Source of the DNA: Litoreibacter albidus
GTDB lineage: Bacteria > Pseudomonadota > Alphaproteobacteria > Rhodobacterales > Rhodobacteraceae
Direction of reading: 5' to 3'
Assembly (NCBI RefSeq): GCF_900107015.1
Contig: NZ_FNOI01000002.1
Location: forward strand, 558,001-622,000
Length of the DNA: 64,000 bases
The translations under genes and the position numbers were made by a program. Of this stretch, positions 9,923-45,886 are shown in pieces. Each line of letters opens with the position of its first letter. The stretch's first letter is position 1. The notes beneath the pieces were generated by a model that saw only the letters and a program-made list of their open reading frames with translations, had not been told where the DNA came from and made no database searches.

Positions 9923-9943
9923 CGCCGCTAGTTTCCTGCCAAT
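9901..9943. terminator. Nested inverted repeat at the hemW/parB convergent junction
   Basis: An outer 7-bp repeat (attggca at 9901-9907, tgccaat at 9937-9943) encloses an inner 11-bp palindrome (ggcgt-a-acgcc, 9916-9926). It spans the two stop codons, which are 5 bases apart. No T tract follows in either direction, so a termination role is only a guess. Confidence 0.3.
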
Positions 9944-10809
9944 ATGCGGCACAGCTCGTCTAGTTGCTCAAAGTCTTTGTAGCTGATGGTAATTCGCCCA
10001 CCTTCGGTGCCCGCTTTGTGATCGATGCTAACTGGCATCTTCAAAGTCGCCGACAGATCGCCCTCCAACGCCTTAGTATCAGCGTCTTTTTCTTTCTGGG
10101 CCTTTGGCTTTACGGCCTTTGGGCCAGCCAAGCCAACCTTCGCCAACCGCTCCGTTTCGCGAACAGATAACCCGTTTTTCACCACCTTACGGGCGAGCTC
10201 GCTCGCGTTGTCCGTCGTGATCAGCGCGCGCGCGTGCCCGATCGTCAGATCCCCCTGCCTTAAAAGCAAAACGACATCATCAGGCAAATTTAGCAGCCGC
10301 ATCAAATTCGCGATATGGCTCCGGCTTTTACCAAGGGCGCTGGCAAGCTGCTCTTGGGTGTGACCAAATTTATCTTGCAGTTGACGGTAGCCCATCGCCT
10401 CTTCGACAGGGTTCAGATCCGCCCGCTGGATGTTCTCGATAATCGCAATTTCAAGGACTTCCGTGTCGTTGAGTTCGCGCAAAACCACAGGCACTTCATG
10501 AAGTTGCGCCATTTGCGCTGCGCGCCACCGCCGCTCCCCTGCGACAATCTCAAACCTGTCCGCATGCTTAGGATGGACACGAACGATCAGGGGCTGAATG
10601 ATACCCTTCGTGCGGAGCGATTCTGCCAGCTCTTCCAGGTTCTCTTTTACAAAATCACGGCGCGGCTGGTCCGGGTTCGGCTCGATCCGTTCAATCGGAA
10701 CGATGCGTTCACCGACACCTGAACTGCTCTCTGACTTAGACGGCGTAGCCACATCAATATCCGCCATCAATGCGGATAAGCCGCGCCCCAAACCACGTTT
10801 TTCCACCAT
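9928..10809 (-). CDS. parB: Chromosome partitioning protein ParB
   Basis: ParB binds parS sites near the origin, loads and spreads as a CTP-dependent clamp, and works with ParA to segregate the origin region. The 293-residue protein has the chromosomal-type N-terminus (LGRGLSALM), the CTP-binding GERRWRAAQM motif (91-100), a helix-turn-helix around 150-172 (TQEQLASALGKSRSHIANL) and a C-terminal dimerisation domain. It follows parA with one base between and is last in the leftward mnmG-rsmG-parA-parB cluster. Two perfect parS sites lie 1.4 and 3.3 kb upstream. Confidence 0.97.
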   Translation of the reverse strand: MVEKRGLGRGLSALMADIDVATPSKSESSSGVGERIVPIERIEPNPDQPRRDFVKENLEELAESLRTKGIIQPLIVRVHPKHADRFEIVAGERRWRAAQMAQLHEVPVVLRELNDTEVLEIAIIENIQRADLNPVEEAMGYRQLQDKFGHTQEQLASALGKSRSHIANLMRLLNLPDDVVLLLRQGDLTIGHARALITTDNASELARKVVKNGLSVRETERLAKVGLAGPKAVKPKAQKEKDADTKALEGDLSATLKMPVSIDHKAGTEGGRITISYKDFEQLDELCRILAGN

Positions 10810-10810
10810 T

Positions 10811-11611
10811 TTAAGCTCCGTCCTGAAGTCTGTGCCGTTTAAGAATTTCTGTCGCTAGTGACTTGTAGGCGACCGCCCCAAGCGAGCTCGGGTCGTAGTT
10901 TATCACCGGCAAACCGTAAGACGGTGCCTCACTAAGCCGAACATTCCGCGGAATCATTGTTTTGAAAACCAACTCACGAAGGTTCTCGCGCACGTCCAAC
11001 TCGACTTGATGGCACAAGTTGTTGCGCCTATCATACATGGTGAGCACAACACCTTCCATGCGAAGCCGCTTGTTTGCGGTTTCCCTAATCTCACGAATTG
11101 AAAGCATCAGTTGGGACAACCCCTCTAACGCAAAAAATTCCGCCTGAAGGGGCACAAGAACTGAATCTGACGCAACCATGGCGTTTAACGTCAGAAGGTT
11201 CAATGAAGGTGGGCAATCAATCAGAATATAGTCCAAGCCAAGCGCGTCCACATCCGGCCCAGCTAAGGCATCGTTGATGAGGAATATTCGTCGCGCCGTC
11301 GACACCAGTTCAATATCGGCAGAGCTTAGGTCAGAGTTTGCTGGGGAAATCAGGAGGCCCGGTACAGCGGTTTCTCTGAGTATCTCGCTCAGCGGCGTTT
11401 CGTTCAGCAGTAAGTCATACGTCGTTTTCTGGCGGTCCGAGTGGTCCACGCCAAGCCCAGTCGACGCGTTTCCCTGAGGGTCCAAGTCAATAATAGCGAC
11501 TTTCATCCCTTTAGCCGCCAGTGAAGCGCCCAGGTTTATGGTCGTTGTCGTCTTGCCAACGCCGCCTTTTTGGTTTGCGACAGAGATGATTTTTGGTGGC
11601 TTAGTCGCCAT
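10811..11611 (-). CDS. parA: Chromosome partitioning ATPase ParA
   Basis: ParA is the ATPase whose DNA-bound gradient moves ParB-parS complexes during chromosome segregation. The 266-residue protein shows the deviant Walker A KGGVGKTT (15-22), the Walker A' region IDLDPQGNASTGL and Walker B-like YILIDCPPSL. It lacks the N-terminal helix-turn-helix of plasmid type Ia ParA, as expected for a chromosomal Soj-type protein. Its start codon directly abuts the rsmG stop. Confidence 0.97.
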   Translation of the reverse strand: MATKPPKIISVANQKGGVGKTTTTINLGASLAAKGMKVAIIDLDPQGNASTGLGVDHSDRQKTTYDLLLNETPLSEILRETAVPGLLISPANSDLSSADIELVSTARRIFLINDALAGPDVDALGLDYILIDCPPSLNLLTLNAMVASDSVLVPLQAEFFALEGLSQLMLSIREIRETANKRLRMEGVVLTMYDRRNNLCHQVELDVRENLRELVFKTMIPRNVRLSEAPSYGLPVINYDPSSLGAVAYKSLATEILKRHRLQDGA

Positions 11612-12238
11612 TTATGCCGCTCGCTTTAATTTCTTTATTGTTAGAAGCGCAGAGGATGGGTTTGTTTTGCTCTGCTGCGTCGTTACGTCAAATTCCCACA
11701 CCTTTGACGCCCTGTCTAGCTCCGTTAGATGCTGTTCGCCCTTTAAAAACAAGCCCGTCCCATCAGGCCTTAGGTGTCGCTCCGTCATGATAAACAGATC
11801 CGCGAGCGGCGCGAGCGCCCTTGCTGTGACCACATCAGATGACAACGGCGCTATGTCCTCTACCCGCTTCGCATGGATGTTTACTGTTAACCCCATTTCT
11901 CGTGCCGCCGTTGACAAAAAAGAAGCCTTTCGGACATCCGACTCAATCAATGATACGCTGAGGTTTGGAAGCTTTTCGGCCGCTATCGCGGCGATCACCA
12001 GTCCTGGAAATCCACCACCGGAGCCGAAATCGCTCAGGTTTTCGCTTCCCTGAGGTATTGCATCGAAAACCTGCGCGGAGTCCAAGAAATGCCGTGACCA
12101 GACCGAGTCAACTGTCGATCTCGCAACCAAGTTAATTTTAGAGGTCCATTTTCTCAGGACATTTTCATATGTTTGAAGCCGCTCTAGTGTTTCACGTGAA
12201 ACATTTTGTTGGTCAGCGAACAGTTCTTTATCAGTCAT
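11612..12238 (-). CDS. rsmG: 16S rRNA (guanine-527-N7)-methyltransferase RsmG
   Basis: RsmG (GidB) methylates G527 of 16S rRNA using SAM. The protein has the family segment NVSRETLERL near the N-terminus and the SAM-binding DFGSGGGFPGLV. The codons for NVSRET form a perfect 16-bp parS site on the DNA. I chose ATG at 12238 (208 residues); a TTG three codons upstream at 12247 has a better spaced GAAGG and would overlap the mnmG stop, so the start is open. It sits between mnmG and parA with no gaps. Confidence 0.93.
   Translation of the reverse strand: MTDKELFADQQNVSRETLERLQTYENVLRKWTSKINLVARSTVDSVWSRHFLDSAQVFDAIPQGSENLSDFGSGGGFPGLVIAAIAAEKLPNLSVSLIESDVRKASFLSTAAREMGLTVNIHAKRVEDIAPLSSDVVTARALAPLADLFIMTERHLRPDGTGLFLKGEQHLTELDRASKVWEFDVTTQQSKTNPSSALLTIKKLKRAA
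12188..12203. other. parS site 1, inside rsmG
   Basis: A perfect 16-bp palindrome, TGTTTCACGTGAAACA, identical to the bacterial chromosomal parS consensus. On the minus strand it encodes part of the NVSRET stretch of RsmG. It lies 5.1 kb left of the proposed origin and 1.4 kb upstream of parB. Confidence 0.93.
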
Positions 12239-12239
12239 A

Positions 12240-14114
12240 CTATCCAACGCGTGCCTTCAAAACCTTCAGGCGCCCTAAGATCAAAGTAAGTGCGGCTGGC
12301 GTTACGCCGTCCACCTTCGCTGCCTGCGCTAGCGTCTCAGGTCGCGCCTTAGATAGCTTCGCCTTAAGCTCGTTTGATAAACCCGTAAGCTCCGTAAAAT
12401 CAAAATCTATAGGAATTACAACGGCTTCATCCCGCTGCAAGGTCTCGGCATCCCTCGTCTGCCGCTCGATATAACTCGCGTAAAGCGCGTCTCTAGAGAT
12501 TTGAGTAACGATCTCGGGCTCAACTGTATCTTCAGGCGGAAGAAGTGGCCTGATGTCATCCACAGTAATGTCAGGAAAGGACAGTAGCTCGAAAGCCGTC
12601 CTACGTTTACCGTCTTTCTTAACAGAAAGCCCCGCGCGCTCCGCTTCTTGAGGGGAGAGGCAAACAGCCTCCATACTCGACCGCAGCTTCGTCAGTTTAG
12701 ATTTCTTCACCTCAAACTGGTTACGACGAACAGAACCGACACATCCGACTTGAATCCCCTTATCAGTCAACCTCTGGTCAGCATTATCCGCGCGGAGTGA
12801 CATACGGTACTCCGCTCGCGACGTGAACATCCGGTAGGGTTCCTGTACCCCTCGAGAAATCAGATCGTCGATCATGACGCCGATATACGCCTCTGAACGG
12901 CTGATGATGAAATCATCAAGTCCCTGAGATTTGCGAGCAGCGTTGATACCCGCAATCAAACCCTGCGCGCCGGCTTCTTCATAGCCGGTGGTCCCGTTAA
13001 TTTGCCCTGCAAGGAACAAACCCGGTGCAACCCGAAGCTCTAAGGTTCTGGTTAACGCCCTCGGGTCAACATAGTCGTACTCGATTGCATAGCCCGGCTG
13101 CAGGATCTTCGCACCCTCAAGTCCTTGAATCGACTGGACATAGCTCTCCTGAACATCAATCGGCAAAGACGTTGAGATACCATTCGGGTAAACCGAATTG
13201 CTGTCCAAGCCCTCTGGCTCAAGAAAAACTTGATGCGACGTCTTATCCGCAAACCGAACCACTTTATCTTCGATAGATGGGCAATACCGCGGACCAACGC
13301 CGTCGATATGGCCGCCATACATCGCAGAACGTTCCAGATTTTCGCGAATCAGGTCGTGCGTCCGCTCATTGGTGTGAGTGATCCCACAGGAGATTTGCCG
13401 AGCAGTGGCAGATTTCGACAGAAACGAGAACAACTCCGGCTCATCATCCCCGGGCTGCATCTCCAATATTGACCAATTAATACTGTCACTTGCTAACCTA
13501 GGGGGGGTTCCCGTCTTCAATCGACCCATATCGACGCCAAACCCGTCGATGCGCTCCGCCAACTTCACTACAGGCGAATCGCCAATACGACCACCAGGGC
13601 GGGATACGTCCCCGATGTGGATAACGCCCCGCAGGAATGTGCCCGCGGTCAGAACAACAGCGCCAGCCGTAATCTGCGACCCGTCCGCTAGGACAACGCC
13701 GCGAACAGTTTCATTATCCATAATGAGGTCGGCGACCTCGCCCTCCACAACCGAGAGGTTTTCCTGCTCTGAGATAAATGACTGAATCGCCTGTCGGTAC
13801 AGCGCTCGATCGGCTTGCGCCCGCGGGCCTTGAACTGCTGGGCCCTTCCGTCTGTTCAAAAGCCGGAATTGAATGCCCGCGGCGTCGGCCGCGCGGCCCA
13901 TAATACCGTCCAAGGCATCGATTTCACGCACTAAGTGCCCTTTTCCGAGCCCGCCGATAGCAGGATTACACGACATAACGCCAATGGTTTCGGCTTTTTG
14001 GGTAACCAACGCGGTACGCGCACCTGTTCGGGCCGCGGCATGTGCTGCCTCGGTTCCGGCATGCCCGCCGCCAATCACCACTACGTCAAACGACGAATGT
14101 TTCACGTGAAACAC
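12240..14114 (-). CDS. mnmG: tRNA uridine-5-carboxymethylaminomethyl(34) synthesis enzyme MnmG
   Basis: MnmG (GidA) with MnmE installs the cmnm5 group at U34 of certain tRNAs, using FAD, NADH and a methylene-THF-derived carbon. The 624-residue protein has the FAD-binding [10 protein letters not shown] motif (15-24), the conserved [23 protein letters not shown] region split over residues 48-70, and the GTFLRG segment. The first six residues, MFHVKH, are encoded by a perfect parS palindrome placed over the start codon. It starts 2 bases after mnmE ends. Confidence 0.97.
14098..14113. other. parS site 2, at the mnmG start codon
   Basis: A second perfect TGTTTCACGTGAAACA palindrome. On the minus strand it overlaps the ATG of mnmG and encodes FHVKH, so the same 16 bases are read in a different frame from the copy in rsmG. 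It lies 3.2 kb left of the proposed origin. Confidence 0.94.
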
Positions 14115-15428: not shown

Positions 15429-16700
15429 TTAGGTGTTCATTGAATCGAAGAAATCGTCGTTTGACTTGGTTTGCTTCAGCTTGCCAAGCAAGAACTCAAT
15501 CGCATCTGTCGTGCCCATTGGGTTCAAGATACGGCGCAGAACAAAGGTCTTTTGCAAGTCGTTCTTATCGACCAACAACTCTTCCTTACGCGTACCGGAC
15601 TTGAGAATATCCATCGCAGGGAAGACCCGTTTATCCGCCACTTTGCGATCAAGGACGATTTCAGAGTTACCGGTCCCTTTGAACTCTTCAAAGATGACTT
15701 CATCCATCCGCGACCCAGTATCGATCAGCGCCGTTGCGATGATCGTCAAAGAGCCACCTTCCTCGATGTTACGTGCAGCCCCGAAGAAGCGCTTCGGACG
15801 CTGTAGCGCGTTCGCATCCACACCACCGGTCAAAACTTTACCCGAGGACGGCACCACTGTGTTGAACGCACGGCCCAAGCGGGTGATGGAGTCGAGCAGG
15901 ATCACAACGTCGCGTTTATGTTCTACCAGACGTTTCGCCTTCTCGATCACCATTTCGGACACACCGACGTGGCGGGTTGCTGGCTCATCAAAAGTAGAGC
16001 TCACAACTTCACCCTTAACGGTGCGCTGCATGTCGGTAACTTCTTCCGGACGCTCGTCGATCAGCAGAACGATCAAATAGCATTCCGGATGGTTCTCTTC
16101 GATAGACTTGGCGATATTTTGCAGCAAAACGGTCTTACCCGTCCGCGGTGGCGCCACGATCAAGGACCGCTGCCCCTTACCGATCGGCGCAACCAAGTCG
16201 ATAATCCGTGCGGAGCGGTCTTTGATCGTTGGGTCTTTCAACTCCATCGTCAGTCGCTCATCAGGGTAGAGCGGCGTTAGGTTGTCAAAAGACACCTTGT
16301 GACGCGCTTTTTCAGGGTCTTCGAAGTTAATCTGCGTCACAGATGTAATCGCAAAATAACGCTCATTCTCTCCTGGGGCGCTCATCACGCCTTCAACTGT
16401 GTCACCCGTGCGCAAGGAATGCTTACGGATCATTTCCGGCGATACGTAGATATCATCTGGGCCTGGCAGGTAGTTCGCCTCAGGCGAGCGCAGGAAGCCG
16501 AAACCGTCCTGAAGCACTTCCAGAACACCGTCGCCACTGACTTCCCAACCATCCTCAGAGTGCTCCTTGAGGATCGAGAACATGATATCCCCTTTCCGCA
16601 TCGTGGAGGCGTTTTCAATCTCAAGCTCCTCAGCCATCGCAACCAGCTCGGCGGGGCTGATTTTTTTGAGGTCGGCGAGATTAATCTTATCTTCGGACAT
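15429..16700 (-). CDS. rho: Transcription termination factor Rho
   Basis: Rho is the hexameric RNA-dependent ATPase that terminates transcription at rut sites. The 423-residue protein has the N-terminal helical domain, the RNA-binding cold-shock-like domain ([14 protein letters not shown], 65-78), Walker A PPRTGKT (184-190) and the Q-loop region ending in the C-terminal ATPase core. It is preceded by a 124-base leader with no recognisable motif and lies downstream of hemJ on the same strand. Confidence 0.97.
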
Positions 16701-16824: not shown

Positions 16825-17277
16825 TCAGAATGGCCGCGCGATAACCATGACGACAATCGCGATCATCAGCACCGTCGGAACCTCGTTCATCAGCCGGTAA
16901 GTCCTACCCGTGCGCGTGTTCTTTCCTGCGGCAAACTCACCAAGTCGCGCTTGCAACCAATGGTGGAAACCCGTCATTCCAAGCACCGCGCCCGCTTTTA
17001 CCCATGGCCAGACATCCGACCAATCGACAATCCCCGGTGTGAACACCAAAGCTAAACCAAAGACCCACGTGCTGATCATCGCGGGGTTCATGATCAACCG
17101 AAACAGCTTGCGCTCCATCATCTTGAAGAGCGCGTCGGTTTCCGAACCAATCTGAACCTTCTCTGTATGATGCACGAACAAGCGTGGAAGGTAGAACAGA
17201 CCTGCCATCCAAGAGATGACAGAGATGACATGCAGACTTTTGGTCCAAGGATAGATCTGTGCCAGAAAATCGCTCAT
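16825..17277 (-). CDS. hemJ: Protoporphyrinogen oxidase HemJ (CopD/UPF0093 family)
   Basis: HemJ is the membrane protoporphyrinogen IX oxidase used in heme synthesis by most alphaproteobacteria. The 150-residue protein has four predicted membrane segments and the conserved N-terminal LHVISVISWMAGLFYLPRLFVHH region with its histidines. It is the first leftward gene beside the proposed origin. In many relatives hemE or a pyruvate dikinase regulator gene stands next to it, but neither is seen here. Confidence 0.93.
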   Translation of the reverse strand: MSDFLAQIYPWTKSLHVISVISWMAGLFYLPRLFVHHTEKVQIGSETDALFKMMERKLFRLIMNPAMISTWVFGLALVFTPGIVDWSDVWPWVKAGAVLGMTGFHHWLQARLGEFAAGKNTRTGRTYRLMNEVPTVLMIAIVVMVIARPF

Positions 17278-17358
17278 ATGCGCCTCGCTCTCTTTTATCC
17301 TTCTTAAATAATTAAAGAAGAAAGAAAAGATGATGTTGTTAGTAGGTACAGTGGATAG

Positions 17359-17367
17359 TGTGGATCA
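17359..17367 (-). other. DnaA box, TGATCCACA type
   Basis: On the minus strand this reads TGATCCACA, one base from the E. coli consensus and, as I recall, the form called the G-box in the Caulobacter origin. Weaker box-like 9-mers flank it on both sides within a 35-bp cluster that includes the inverted repeat cagtgga/tccactg. Confidence 0.65.
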
Positions 17368-17442
17368 AATACTTGTCCACTGGTGATTGATCACGAGTTT
17401 GAACTTCTGCACAGATACTTTCACTTCACATATTATTGTTTA

Positions 17443-17457
17443 TTTACATATAGTTAA
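17443..17457. promoter_or_regulatory. CtrA-like half-site pair
   Basis: The sequence tttaCATATAGttaa matches the CtrA pattern TTAA-N7-TTAA with one mismatch. It lies in the AT-rich part of the proposed origin. In Caulobacter CtrA silences the origin, but in Rhodobacterales CtrA is not known to do so, so function is doubtful. Confidence 0.3.
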
Positions 17458-17482
17458 ATGAAATACCGTCTCGGTAAGAATC

Positions 17483-17491
17483 TGGGGATAA
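17483..17491 (-). other. DnaA box, one mismatch (TTATCCCCA)
   Basis: The minus strand reads TTATCCCCA, one mismatch from TTATCCACA. A GANTC methylation site (17478-17482) abuts it directly. Confidence 0.55.
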
Positions 17492-17612
17492 ATACGGGAT
17501 CAAATTGCCTTCAGCGAAACCACTCACATGCATGATTTGGCCAATCCCCAAGGGATAAACGTAGGGCCAGAATCCTAACAGTGTGGGTAATATGCCCGAG
17601 TTCAGCAAACGC

Positions 17613-17621
17613 GGTGGATAA
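17613..17621 (-). other. DnaA box, one mismatch (TTATCCACC)
   Basis: The minus strand reads TTATCCACC, differing from the consensus only in the last base. It lies 44 bases before the perfect box of opposite orientation. Confidence 0.6.
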
Positions 17622-17664
17622 GCTCAGGTTACCGCAATATATATCCCTTAGCTTTCCCTCAGAG

Positions 17665-17673
17665 TTATCCACA
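17665..17673 (+). other. Perfect DnaA box at the maf start
   Basis: TTATCCACA, an exact consensus DnaA box. Its last base is the A of the maf ATG, so DnaA binding here could also affect maf transcription. maf has no clear ribosome-binding site at this position. Confidence 0.75.
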
Positions 17674-18272
17674 TGACCCGCCCCATAATTCTAGCATCAG
17701 GCTCCGAAACACGGCAGGCGATGTTGCGCCAAGCAGGTGTAGACTTCACTTCCAAGCTGGCGCGGATAGATGAAGATAGCATTAAAGCGTCTCTGCTGGC
17801 AGAGGACGCGCCCCCACGTGATGTTGCAGATGCTTTGGCGGAATTCAAAGCGCGCCGTGTGGCGCAGCAGCATCCGGAAGCCTTGGTTATTGGCAGCGAT
17901 CAGGTCCTTGAGGTTGGGGGTGCTATCTTGTCAAAACCTGTCACGGCTGAGGATGCCATTGCGCAACTCAGCCAAATGTCGGGCAAGCAGCACAAGTTGT
18001 TGTCCGCTGTGGTGATATATGAAGACGCCAAGCCGGTGTGGCGCACCGTGGGCCAAGTCCGGTTAACCGTGCGTATATTGAGCCCCGACTATATAGAGAG
18101 CTATGTTGCCCGAAACTGGGAAGACATTCGCCATTGTGTCGGTGGATACCAGATAGAAGCCGAAGGCGCGCGGCTTTTCGCTCGGGTGGACGGGGACTAT
18201 TTCACGGTGCTCGGAATGCCATTACTAGATGTGTTAGGTTACCTTACTATGTCGGGAGCGATAGACGGATGA
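17673..18272 (+). CDS. maf: Maf-like nucleoside triphosphate pyrophosphatase
   Basis: Maf proteins hydrolyse non-canonical or modified pyrimidine nucleoside triphosphates. The 199-residue protein shows the N-terminal family motif ILASGSETRQAML, the IGSDQVLEVGG substrate region and the IEAEGARLF segment. It is the first rightward gene beside the proposed origin, and a perfect DnaA box overlaps its start. Its stop overlaps the aroE start (ATGA), so the run maf-aroE-coaE-dnaQ is translationally coupled. Confidence 0.94.
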   Translation: MTRPIILASGSETRQAMLRQAGVDFTSKLARIDEDSIKASLLAEDAPPRDVADALAEFKARRVAQQHPEALVIGSDQVLEVGGAILSKPVTAEDAIAQLSQMSGKQHKLLSAVVIYEDAKPVWRTVGQVRLTVRILSPDYIESYVARNWEDIRHCVGGYQIEAEGARLFARVDGDYFTVLGMPLLDVLGYLTMSGAIDG

Positions 18273-35463: not shown

Positions 35464-35469
35464 TCAACG

Positions 35470-35503
35470 AAAAACGCCCCGCCAATTGGACGGGGCGTTT
35501 CTC
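35470..35503. terminator. Intrinsic terminator, repeat copy 1
   Basis: A 10-bp stem (aaacgccccg at 35472-35481, cggggcgttt at 35491-35500) with a loop containing the palindrome CCAATTGG. It sits between the plus-strand 44-residue gene and the minus-strand DUF1508 gene and can serve both. The same 34 bases recur exactly at 35927-35960. Confidence 0.85.
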
Positions 35504-35516
35504 ACTAAATAAGCAA

Positions 35517-35684
35517 CTATTCGTAAACAGGCGCTGATGACGAGCCTTTTACAAGTGATATGCCATTTAAGCAGTCGGATTTATTCCGATAGCCTTCAGC
35601 AGAATCTGCAACAATGCGGCCGTTAGAAGCTTTGAGATTCCAACGCCAGTCACCAATCGTATCTTTATAGATATAGTAGTTCAT
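35517..35684 (-). CDS. DUF1508 (YegP-like) domain protein, 55 residues
   Basis: The 55-residue protein fits one DUF1508 repeat: YYIYKDTIGDWRWNLKASNG, RIVADSAEGYRNKSDCLNGI. The function of this family is unknown. The start is ATG 35684, with AAGGA about 9 bases before it; a longer upstream frame lacks homology. Codon choice is AT-rich compared with its neighbours and the gene lies between two identical terminator repeats, which hints at acquisition. Confidence 0.85.
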   Translation of the reverse strand: MNYYIYKDTIGDWRWNLKASNGRIVADSAEGYRNKSDCLNGISLVKGSSSAPVYE

Positions 35685-35926
35685 TATGCTGTCCTTGAAC
35701 AAGATTGTCTTCAGAATGTCGAATGACACTTGACGGAGTCCAACATGCGTGAAAATCTCACGTTGTCTGATAAAGACTTCCGTCGGTCACCGACGGTTTA
35801 GGCGCTCTGGACCACGAATCCATGAGCGCCTTATTGATTCCATACCTAACTAACTGAGTCGACTCATTTTTGTATGGGCTGCCACAATTTGTTGTAAGTT
35901 GCATGCTGAAATGAACAATATAATGT
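35685..35926. other. Non-coding pocket with two hairpins and an 18-codon frame
   Basis: No ordinary gene is visible here. On the plus strand a ribosome-site-like GGAG precedes an 18-codon frame (ATG 35745, stop 35799-35801) whose end is covered by a perfect 7-bp hairpin ccgtcgg/ccgacgg (35780-35796). A second stem ggcgctc/gagcgcc (35801-35807 with 35824-35830) follows. A small RNA or leader peptide is possible; no proof. Confidence 0.3.
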
Positions 35927-35960
35927 AAAAACGCCCCGCCAATTGGACGGGGCGTTTCTC
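35927..35960 (-). terminator. Intrinsic terminator of the peptide ABC operon, repeat copy 2
   Basis: Exact 34-base copy of the hairpin at 35470-35503. On the minus strand the 10-bp GC-rich stem is followed by TTTTT, 20 bases after the substrate-binding protein stop codon. Confidence 0.85.
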
Positions 35961-35979
35961 TATCTTTAATTGGCGGGGC

Positions 35980-44273: not shown

Positions 44274-44993
44274 CTAGTCATCTTTCGTCACGCGCGCTAG
44301 GACCAGCACGTCAACTTGCCGTGCGCCAGCTGTAACGCAGGCTTCGGCGCAGGCGGCCAAGGTGGCGCCGGATGTCATGACGTCATCAACCAGTAGCACC
44401 GACCGCCCTGTTAGCTGCGTTCCTCTTTTGGGGTGGGGGATGATGGCGCCGTCCAATGCCGCAAACCGGCTGTCGCGCGACTTTCCGTCCAGCGTATCCG
44501 TCATCCGTTGCCGTAAAAGCGGATCGGGCAGGTAGGTCACCCCCAGTGTCTCCGCCACAACTTTCGCCAGTAACGCAGACTGGTTGTAGCGCCTTTTTAC
44601 ACGCCGGAGCCAGTGAAGGGGAACGGGCACCACTACTGTATCAGCGTCCAACGGCGGTGCCACGCGGACCATCCAATGCGCAGCAGGTCTTGCCAGATCG
44701 GTGCGGTCCCCATGTTTTAACCGCAACACGATGTCGCGCCCCTTCCCGCGGTAGAGCATGGCTGCCGCCCCGCGGTGCCACGGGCGGGCGATGGTCATGC
44801 AGTCATCGCACTGAATGTCCGTGCCCCGATCAGTCCCTGGCAACGGTAGGCCGCAGGTTTTACACGTGAGACCCTGAATGAAGTGGGTTTCGCGCCAACA
44901 CGCGCCGCATAGCGACAGATCGTCCTCTACCGCTGCGCCGCAGGTCAGGCACTGTGGCGGGTAGATCAGCCGAAGCGCGGATTGCAATTTCAT
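44274..44993 (-). CDS. comF: ComF family protein (phosphoribosyltransferase fold)
   Basis: A 239-residue protein with an N-terminal zinc-binding region of paired cysteines (CLTC, CGAC, CKTC, CDDC within the first 65 residues) and a C-terminal type I phosphoribosyltransferase fold with the PRPP-binding motif VLLVDDVMTSGAT. ComF proteins are needed for DNA uptake in several bacteria; the biochemical role is not settled. It is divergent from the methyltransferase gene with a 44-base gap. Confidence 0.92.
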   Translation of the reverse strand: MKLQSALRLIYPPQCLTCGAAVEDDLSLCGACWRETHFIQGLTCKTCGLPLPGTDRGTDIQCDDCMTIARPWHRGAAAMLYRGKGRDIVLRLKHGDRTDLARPAAHWMVRVAPPLDADTVVVPVPLHWLRRVKRRYNQSALLAKVVAETLGVTYLPDPLLRQRMTDTLDGKSRDSRFAALDGAIIPHPKRGTQLTGRSVLLVDDVMTSGATLAACAEACVTAGARQVDVLVLARVTKDD

Positions 44994-45037
44994 GCGTTTC
45001 CTCTAAGTAGCGGCGTCTGAGCCGTAGGAGTTCTATC

Positions 45038-45886
45038 GTGTCCCAACCCCGCCCCCTAACAGACCGTGAAGCCTTGCAGCGACAACGTGCGCGGGCCAGA
45101 GCACAAGGGCCCGCCATGTTCTTGCATGACGAGGCACTGTTCGAGGTTCAAGAAAGACTGATCGACGTTAACAGGTCGTTTACGTCACCTGCGATTGTGA
45201 CGGGCCACCCCGAGTATTGGGCGCAGGCCTTCCCCAATGCGGTGGTGGTTCCCGATGATGATGTTGTGGCGCTAGAGGTTGGCGCGCACGATCTGGTGAT
45301 CCATGCGATGGGGCTTCATTGGGCGAATGATCCTGTTGGCCAATTGGTGCAGTGCCGCCGCGCGTTGAAGCCCGATGGCCTGTTCATCGGAGCCTTTCTG
45401 GGTGGGCAAACCCTTGTGGAGCTCCGCGCCGCGTTGTCGGAGGCCGAAGCAGCGCTTTCCGGTGGGCTGGCACCGCGCGTTGCGCCAATGGGCGAAATCC
45501 GCGATCTGGGCGGCTTACTGCAACGCGCAGGGCTTGCTTTGCCAGTGGCTGACAGCTCCAAAAGGAGTGTGAGCTACGGCTCTCCTATGGCCTTGCTGCG
45601 GGACTTGCGGGCGATGGGCGAGGGCAATGCGTTGATGGATCGGCAAAAAACACCGCCACCACGTGATCTATTTACGCAAATGGCCCGTATATATTCAGAA
45701 CACTACGCTTTGGACGCGGATCGGGTCACGGCAACGTTTGAGATGATCTTCCTGACCGGATGGGCCCCGTCTGAATCGCAGCAGAAACCTCTGCAACCTG
45801 GGTCGGCCTCGACCCGACTGGCGGATTTTTTAAACACGACCGAGTTGGGGCAAGACGCGAAACCGGTTAATGGTGACGACAAATAA
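45038..45886 (+). CDS. SAM-dependent methyltransferase-like protein (BioC/NDUFAF5 type)
   Basis: A 282-residue protein of the class I methyltransferase fold. The central LVIHAMGLHWANDPVGQLVQ and CRRALKPDGLFIGAFLGG segments match the motif IV and post-IV regions of BioC/NDUFAF5-like proteins. The usual glycine-rich motif I is not visible in the N-terminal part, where YWAQAFPNAVVV stands instead. Mitochondrial NDUFAF5 hydroxylates an arginine in complex I, so a non-methyl role is possible. It precedes hemH by 5 bases. Confidence 0.82.
   Translation: MSQPRPLTDREALQRQRARARAQGPAMFLHDEALFEVQERLIDVNRSFTSPAIVTGHPEYWAQAFPNAVVVPDDDVVALEVGAHDLVIHAMGLHWANDPVGQLVQCRRALKPDGLFIGAFLGGQTLVELRAALSEAEAALSGGLAPRVAPMGEIRDLGGLLQRAGLALPVADSSKRSVSYGSPMALLRDLRAMGEGNALMDRQKTPPPRDLFTQMARIYSEHYALDADRVTATFEMIFLTGWAPSESQQKPLQPGSASTRLADFLNTTELGQDAKPVNGDDK

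Follow-up and report, generated by a model that had tools for sequence, protein, structure and literature searches.

The chromosomal origin of Caulobacter crescentus, Cori, is located between hemE and COG1806/DUF299 and was described in 2007 as the only experimentally identified alphaproteobacterial origin (PMC1914354). Within the Rhodobacteraceae, oriCs have been predicted in 101 strains by Ori-Finder on the basis of skew, boxes and parAB (PMC6699656); in R. sphaeroides, cumulative skew served to locate the origins and OriFinder to check them (PMC6315104). In a set of 179 alphaproteobacterial genomes, almost all were reported to have parAB close to ori (PMC8116508). A scheme for the opening of the strands has been described for Bacillus subtilis, where DnaA bound at a pair of boxes is directed to the 3'-GAT-5' trios next to them; the accompanying search program accepts a site only if three or more 3'-NAN-5' units lie no more than 16 bases from a box, and the commonest spacer is 13 (PMC8287927). 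B. subtilis needs both the proximal fixed-orientation boxes and a distal set, the latter perhaps acting via looping (PMC6669920). Among the literature titles and abstract openings that we searched, none dealt with an origin between hemJ and maf or with the way it unwinds; databases such as DoriC, or the 2070-species survey of PMC8287927, may well include it. Origins of this kind are well known; what is new here is mainly the clarity with which the working parts can be read.

The window analysed here is a stretch of 64,000 nucleotides which corresponds to positions 558001-622000 of contig C4 (699 kb) in a 3.58-Mb assembly of 12 contigs (G000). The Maf protein encoded on it is 82-84% identical to that of the nearest named relatives, which belong to Litoreibacter. 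The intergenic region at 17278-17672, comprising 395 bases, is very probably the chromosomal origin oriC of this Litoreibacter-like Rhodobacterales chromosome, as predicted from its sequence, the gap length kept in relatives and the switch of the GC skew. The first-pass annotation had inferred the same, and the proposal found support in a unique cluster of DnaA boxes, a skew switch on C4 and the conservation of gap and boxes in 79 relatives. The region is bordered on the left by a UPF0093 gene, which we take to be hemJ (16825-17277, minus strand; PF03653, E 2.6e-59), and on the right by maf (17673-18272, plus strand; PF02545, E 6e-46). Both genes diverge from the gap, as had been noted before, and the genes for ParB (9928-10809) and ParA (10811-11611), both on the minus strand, were confirmed within 8 kb of it together with two parS sites. 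These sites, at 12188-12203 and 14098-14113, are identical to what we take to be the parS consensus. Both are situated inside coding sequence close to gene starts, the former within the 5' end of rsmG and the latter at the first codons of mnmG. The gap also proved to be the sole gene-free stretch of more than 300 bases in the window: a crude gene caller additionally left 35464-35979 and 44799-45115 open, and both candidate openings were found to hold ORFs. The first contains a DUF1508 ORF at 35517-35729, which leaves approximately 250-295 bases free, and the second is overlapped by a zinc-ribbon/phosphoribosyltransferase ORF at 44274-44993. Neither tRNA genes nor Rfam families were found in the window.

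All four DnaA boxes that had been itemised in the gap were recovered at their positions. The perfect box TTATCCACA occupies 17665-17673 on the plus strand, its final base being the A of the maf start codon. Three further motif matches are on the minus strand: TGATCCACA at 17359-17367, which has the spelling of the Caulobacter G-box, TTATCCCCA at 17483-17491, which holds the W-box hexamer TCCCCA, and TTATCCACC at 17613-17621 with one mismatch (G-box and W-box spellings as given in PMC4285127). Absent from the earlier itemised list were a fifth box with one mismatch, TTACCCACA at 17582-17590 on the minus strand, and two matches to TTATNCACA with one mismatch at 17405-17413 and 17440-17448. In tandem with the left box, a weaker one can be read on the minus strand at 17350-17358 (CTATCCACT, two mismatches to TTATCCACA). 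Counting boxes with at most one mismatch to TTATCCACA or TGATCCACA, five are present in 396 bases; 2000 dinucleotide shuffles of this sequence averaged 0.25 and never reached five. This enrichment is local, because the whole window is at chance in a looser search with TTATNCACA (28 matches vs. 27.3 expected, seven of the 28 in the gap). A perfect TTATCCACA also occurs at 13616-13624 inside mnmG, 3.7 kb from the gap.

Exact boxes were compared with the whole assembly and mismatched boxes with a 698-kb sample of other DNA from the same genome. The assembly contains 73 exact sites (29 of TTATCCMCA and 44 of TGATCCACA), and the only three that stand less than 1 kb from each other are all in the hemJ-maf gap. 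With random placement of 73 sites the probability of three within 306 bases is p = 0.0013, whereas two exact sites within 306 bases are unremarkable by themselves (p = 0.364). With TGATCCCCA included, the first 100 of the 128 listed places contain three additional pairs spaced by no more than 150 bases (on C2, C5 and C6) and no additional triple. In the 698-kb sample, composed of 40 pieces, no 396-base window with at least four boxes was found, the maximum being three. The gap holds a cluster of DnaA boxes that stands out from its genome, as is expected of an oriC.

A GC-skew minimum elsewhere in the chromosome had been named in the first-pass annotation as an observation that would speak against an origin at this place. 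On C4, which was covered by 24 pieces including the window in four (two adjacent pieces share 1.8 kb), the skew changes from minus to plus at approximately 575 kb, at the gap: left of 574 kb 15 of 18 pieces are negative and three weakly positive, and to the right all six are positive. The weakly positive pieces, beginning at 245, 380 and 450 kb (L120, L124 and L126), all have a GC content above 0.61 and are possibly islands or inversions. Across the window, cumulative skew reaches its minimum at 16-18 kb and dips again at 33-35 kb; the largest skew step lies at 17250 with 5-kb arms and at 17750 with 17-kb arms, and with 10-kb arms the top step is at 16000 with 17750 close behind. Twenty samples from five other contigs (C2, C5, C6, C7 and C12) revealed one clear switch, on C2, which runs from positive over about zero to negative, i.e., in the sense of a terminus. 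C6 is negative in three of three samples and C5 in three of four, C7 has two negative samples followed by a weakly positive end (+0.011), and C12 is represented by a single sample. The 3.85-Mb contig of a genome from the same genus (G006) agrees with the switch on C4: seven of eight samples from 1.4-2.69 Mb are negative and 11 of the remaining 12 positive, and maf, at 2.723 Mb, falls where the last negative sample gives way to the following positive one. For a single-contig genome of the same family (G020), all 11 samples from 1.62-3.42 Mb are negative and six of nine from 0-1.44 Mb positive, with maf at 3.478 Mb; the right side is weak, and the skew agrees only weakly with an origin at the hemJ-maf gap. 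The minus-to-plus change expected of an oriC is present in the genome itself at contig level, the assembly having 12 contigs. Skew minimum, DnaA boxes and nearby parAB are the same criteria as those behind the Rhodobacteraceae predictions by Ori-Finder (PMC6699656).

In 79 of 80 loci from named relatives, hemJ precedes maf and 377-433 bases (median 407) separate the two; the exception, L037, starts 96 bases before maf at a contig end. Beside hemJ, the genes parB, parA, rsmG, mnmG, mnmE and rho follow in constant order wherever the loci are long enough. The 79 loci carry 3.65 boxes on average, counted over 432 bases reaching just beyond the maf start, vs. an expectation of 0.24 derived from the remainder of each locus, with at least three boxes in 66 and at least two in 75 of them. 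Four of the 80 loci have no box at one mismatch, namely the cut L037, L041 and L071 from Nioella, and L081 from Rhodophyticola. The loci from Nioella and Rhodophyticola have kept the hemJ-maf gap and a GATGATG element that is described below, and GGGGATAA or a similar sequence occupies the positions expected for the boxes. The positions of single boxes are kept within the genus as well. Of 18 same-genus genomes (the focal one included), 15 have a box at -311 to -316 from maf (focal 17359-17367), seven at -190 with three more at -191 to -193 (focal 17483-17491), ten at -60 (focal 17613-17621) and 13 at -8 (focal 17665-17673). For a broader comparison we used 93 distinct gap sequences, which remained of 101 after removal of duplicates (22 of the 101 are outside the named set, some close to it) and which are not independent because they are related. 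A plus-strand box with at most two mismatches is present in the last 45 gap bases of 90 of these 93, a count that stands without a control.

The AT-rich segments pointed out earlier correspond to the two 50-mers with the lowest stability in the window, which begin at 17416 and 17292, and the easily melted region that belongs to an oriC is present. The middle segment (17416-17465), a possible second DNA unwinding element (DUE 2), is the least stable 50-mer of all; its AT-richness is kept in relatives and its sequence is scarcely conserved. The left segment (17292-17341; predicted DUE 1) is the second least stable one, and its sequence is conserved. It adjoins a DnaA-trio-like element, GAAAGAAAAGATGATGTTGTTAGTAG, on the plus strand at 17320-17345, in which GATGATG (17329-17335) is followed by TAG TAG (17340-17345). 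The highest information in the alignment of the 93 gaps was found here, at 17320-17337 (GAAAGAAAAGATGATGTT): averaged over 15 bases, the information peaks at 1.5 bits (17322-17336), compared with 0.52 for the whole gap, 1.1 for the left box and 1.2 for the maf end. GATGATG occurs in 74 of the 93 gaps, its reverse complement CATCATC in none and the reversed spelling GTAGTAG in one. Across the order, the pattern AARGATGATGN{3,7}GTWGG has a match in 50 of 149 genomes and the reversed pattern in three, several of the matches being seemingly off the origin.

Four base pairs (17346-17349) separate the first trio from the weaker tandem box, and 4 bp on average are given for the gap between box and trio in the B. 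subtilis system (PMC8287927). Together with the weaker box CTATCCACT these four bases make up the 13-base spacer at 17346-17358 between the TAG at 17343-17345 and the box at 17359-17367, which falls within the approximately 10-13 bases of the basal unwinding system. Among the 85 loci with a GTWG motif, a spacer of 13 bases to the box is the commonest (41 loci). In 50 of the 93 sequences, three or more 3'-NAN-5' trios stand no further than 16 bases from a box, vs. 7 of 93 after shuffling each once; in one of the 50, L108, the trios belong to a different stretch than the conserved element. The locus shares with the basal unwinding system, as described in PMC8287927 and PMC6669920, the fixed-orientation tandem boxes, the 13-base spacer and the distal boxes, as well as box-proximal 3'-GAT-5' trios on the 5'-tail strand followed by AT-rich DNA. 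It differs in having just two exact 3'-GAT-5' trios in register, three (TAGTAGAAA) being obtained only in a shifted reading with a spacer of 15 from the weaker box, and in that the repeat continues as 5'-GATGATG-3', i.e., as 3'-TAG-5' in another register. The element is similar to the basal unwinding system and, by analogy, is likely to work alike; we claim likeness rather than membership, because the trios agree only in part with the three-trio rule.

The published Bacillus work served as the analogy for the following scheme. DnaA-ATP would assemble on the fixed-orientation tandem boxes at the left (17350-17367) and also on the distal boxes to the right (17483, 17582, 17613 and 17665), to which we ascribe a putative helper role. 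From the left pair DnaA would extend onto the single-stranded trinucleotides of the trio-like element at 17320-17345, the adjacent AT-rich DNA at 17292-17341 would melt, and helicase loading would send forks in both directions. The newly copied parS sites, 3-5 kb off, would then be handled by ParAB. The choice of the left AT-rich segment as the predicted opening site is made because it adjoins the conserved element, the middle segment being slightly less stable in the focal window.

An origin located at dnaA, as in Bacillus, would leave the hemJ-maf gap as merely a divergent promoter regulated by DnaA. Gene regulation by DnaA boxes is possible, the last box overlaps the start codon of maf, and dnaA resides on the same contig (C4:318989), 256 kb away. 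Around dnaA, however, there are only four scattered boxes in a piece of 19.9 kb, and the skew is negative on both sides of the gene and remains unchanged there. We have rejected dnaA as the place of the origin, and the regulatory reading of the gap is very improbable. It is equally hard to credit that the main origin lies on an unsampled contig and that the hemJ-maf region is an inactive or secondary one. Contigs C1, C3 and C8-C11 were outside the skew sampling, which gives such an origin room, but the skew switch of the 3.85-Mb contig from the same genus is at the orthologous gap, and nowhere else in the whole assembly do exact TTATCCMCA/TGATCCACA sites lie less than 1 kb apart.

Where the strands open within the predicted oriC can be argued with less certainty. 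The conserved left block might be the promoter or leader of hemJ, with the gap still being oriC and opening elsewhere, e.g., in the middle AT-rich segment. The block averages 57 bases from the hemJ start, and the middle segment, the least stable of the window, is the stability minimum of the gap in 28 of the 93 sequences; the left segment is the minimum in the other 65, and both dips are kept on average. The distances speak against this reading: the element is 32 or 33 bases from a box in 72 of the 79 sequences (of 93) in which a box was found 24-36 bases away (sd 0.90, a spread limited by this search range), whereas its distance to hemJ, measurable in 93 of 93, varies with an sd of 6.61, to which the annotated start codons add noise. 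The expression that anchors the element was written after inspection of the alignment and allows several variants, and both spreads are descriptive. The concentration on two values nevertheless argues against the conservation being due to a hemJ promoter, and we regard this explanation as unlikely, though not negligible. Somewhat more doubtful still is the idea of a clade-specific unwinding element of the Rhodobacterales, in which canonical 3'-GAT-5' trios beside the boxes are followed by the opposite-reading GATGATG and a second AT-rich opening site is added. If it were true, DnaA or another protein would read GATGATG, which is conserved above the boxes, in an undescribed register. The favoured reading is still that a Bacillus-like element leads to opening of the left segment.

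The comparison with Cori was made via class-level relatives with hemE and DUF299 flanks. Judged in this way, the focal gap has the same syntenic place before maf and the same kinds of parts, i.e., the G-box TGATCCACA, the W-box hexamer TCCCCA and AT-rich DNA. It differs in that it is no longer flanked by hemE and DUF299, and in that neither a full CtrA site (TTAA-N7-TTAA) nor an IHF consensus was found in the gap. Two relaxed CtrA-like TTAA/TTWW sites at 17293 and 17443 exceed the 0.05 expected from the whole-window rate, and local AT-richness may explain this excess. The GANTC sites mentioned in the first-pass annotation are indeed present, two in number, but with 0.5 expected this is near chance, and an enrichment of GANTC was rejected. 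Its general statement that alphaproteobacterial origins lie near parAB and hem genes applies here with regard to parAB and needs correction with regard to the hem gene: the mapped flank in Caulobacter is hemE, and here it is hemJ.

Borders formed by hemE and COG1806 (DUF299), as in the Caulobacter type, were found in none of the focal genus. DUF299 (PF03618) is present in 13 of 41 genomes and in none of the 18 of the focal genus. The hemE gene is present in 40 of the 41; in the focal assembly it is on another contig (C11), and in the 3.85-Mb contig it lies approximately 110 kb from maf. In nine of the 13 genomes with DUF299, hemE stands beside it at a distance of 345-750 bases (in G039 as a fragment), and in the other four the two are on different contigs. 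All six of these nine that could be inspected carry boxes between hemE and DUF299: six in G037, four in G030, three each in G021 and G034, two in G036 and one in G038. Within the same family the order is hemE-gap-DUF299-maf in G021, hemJ-gap-DUF299-maf in G018, with three boxes in the gap, and hemJ-gap-maf in the focal genus. This series suggests that the hemJ-maf origin is a Caulobacter-type hemE-oriC-DUF299-maf arrangement that has lost DUF299 and from which hemE has moved away. It further suggests that the flanking genes left stepwise and the origin stayed, the order of the steps being a putative one read from these gene arrangements. An origin may, it suggests, stay put while its classical marker genes (hemE, DUF299) depart. 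The present analysis maps a predicted origin from a large marine order base by base, and this map is a ready test case for the question whether the Bacillus unwinding scheme operates in alphaproteobacteria.

Apart from the origin, the DUF1508 ORF at 35517-35729 stands between two copies of one G+C-rich inverted repeat, each with T after it (35470-35503 and 35929-35963), and these repeats resemble intrinsic terminators.
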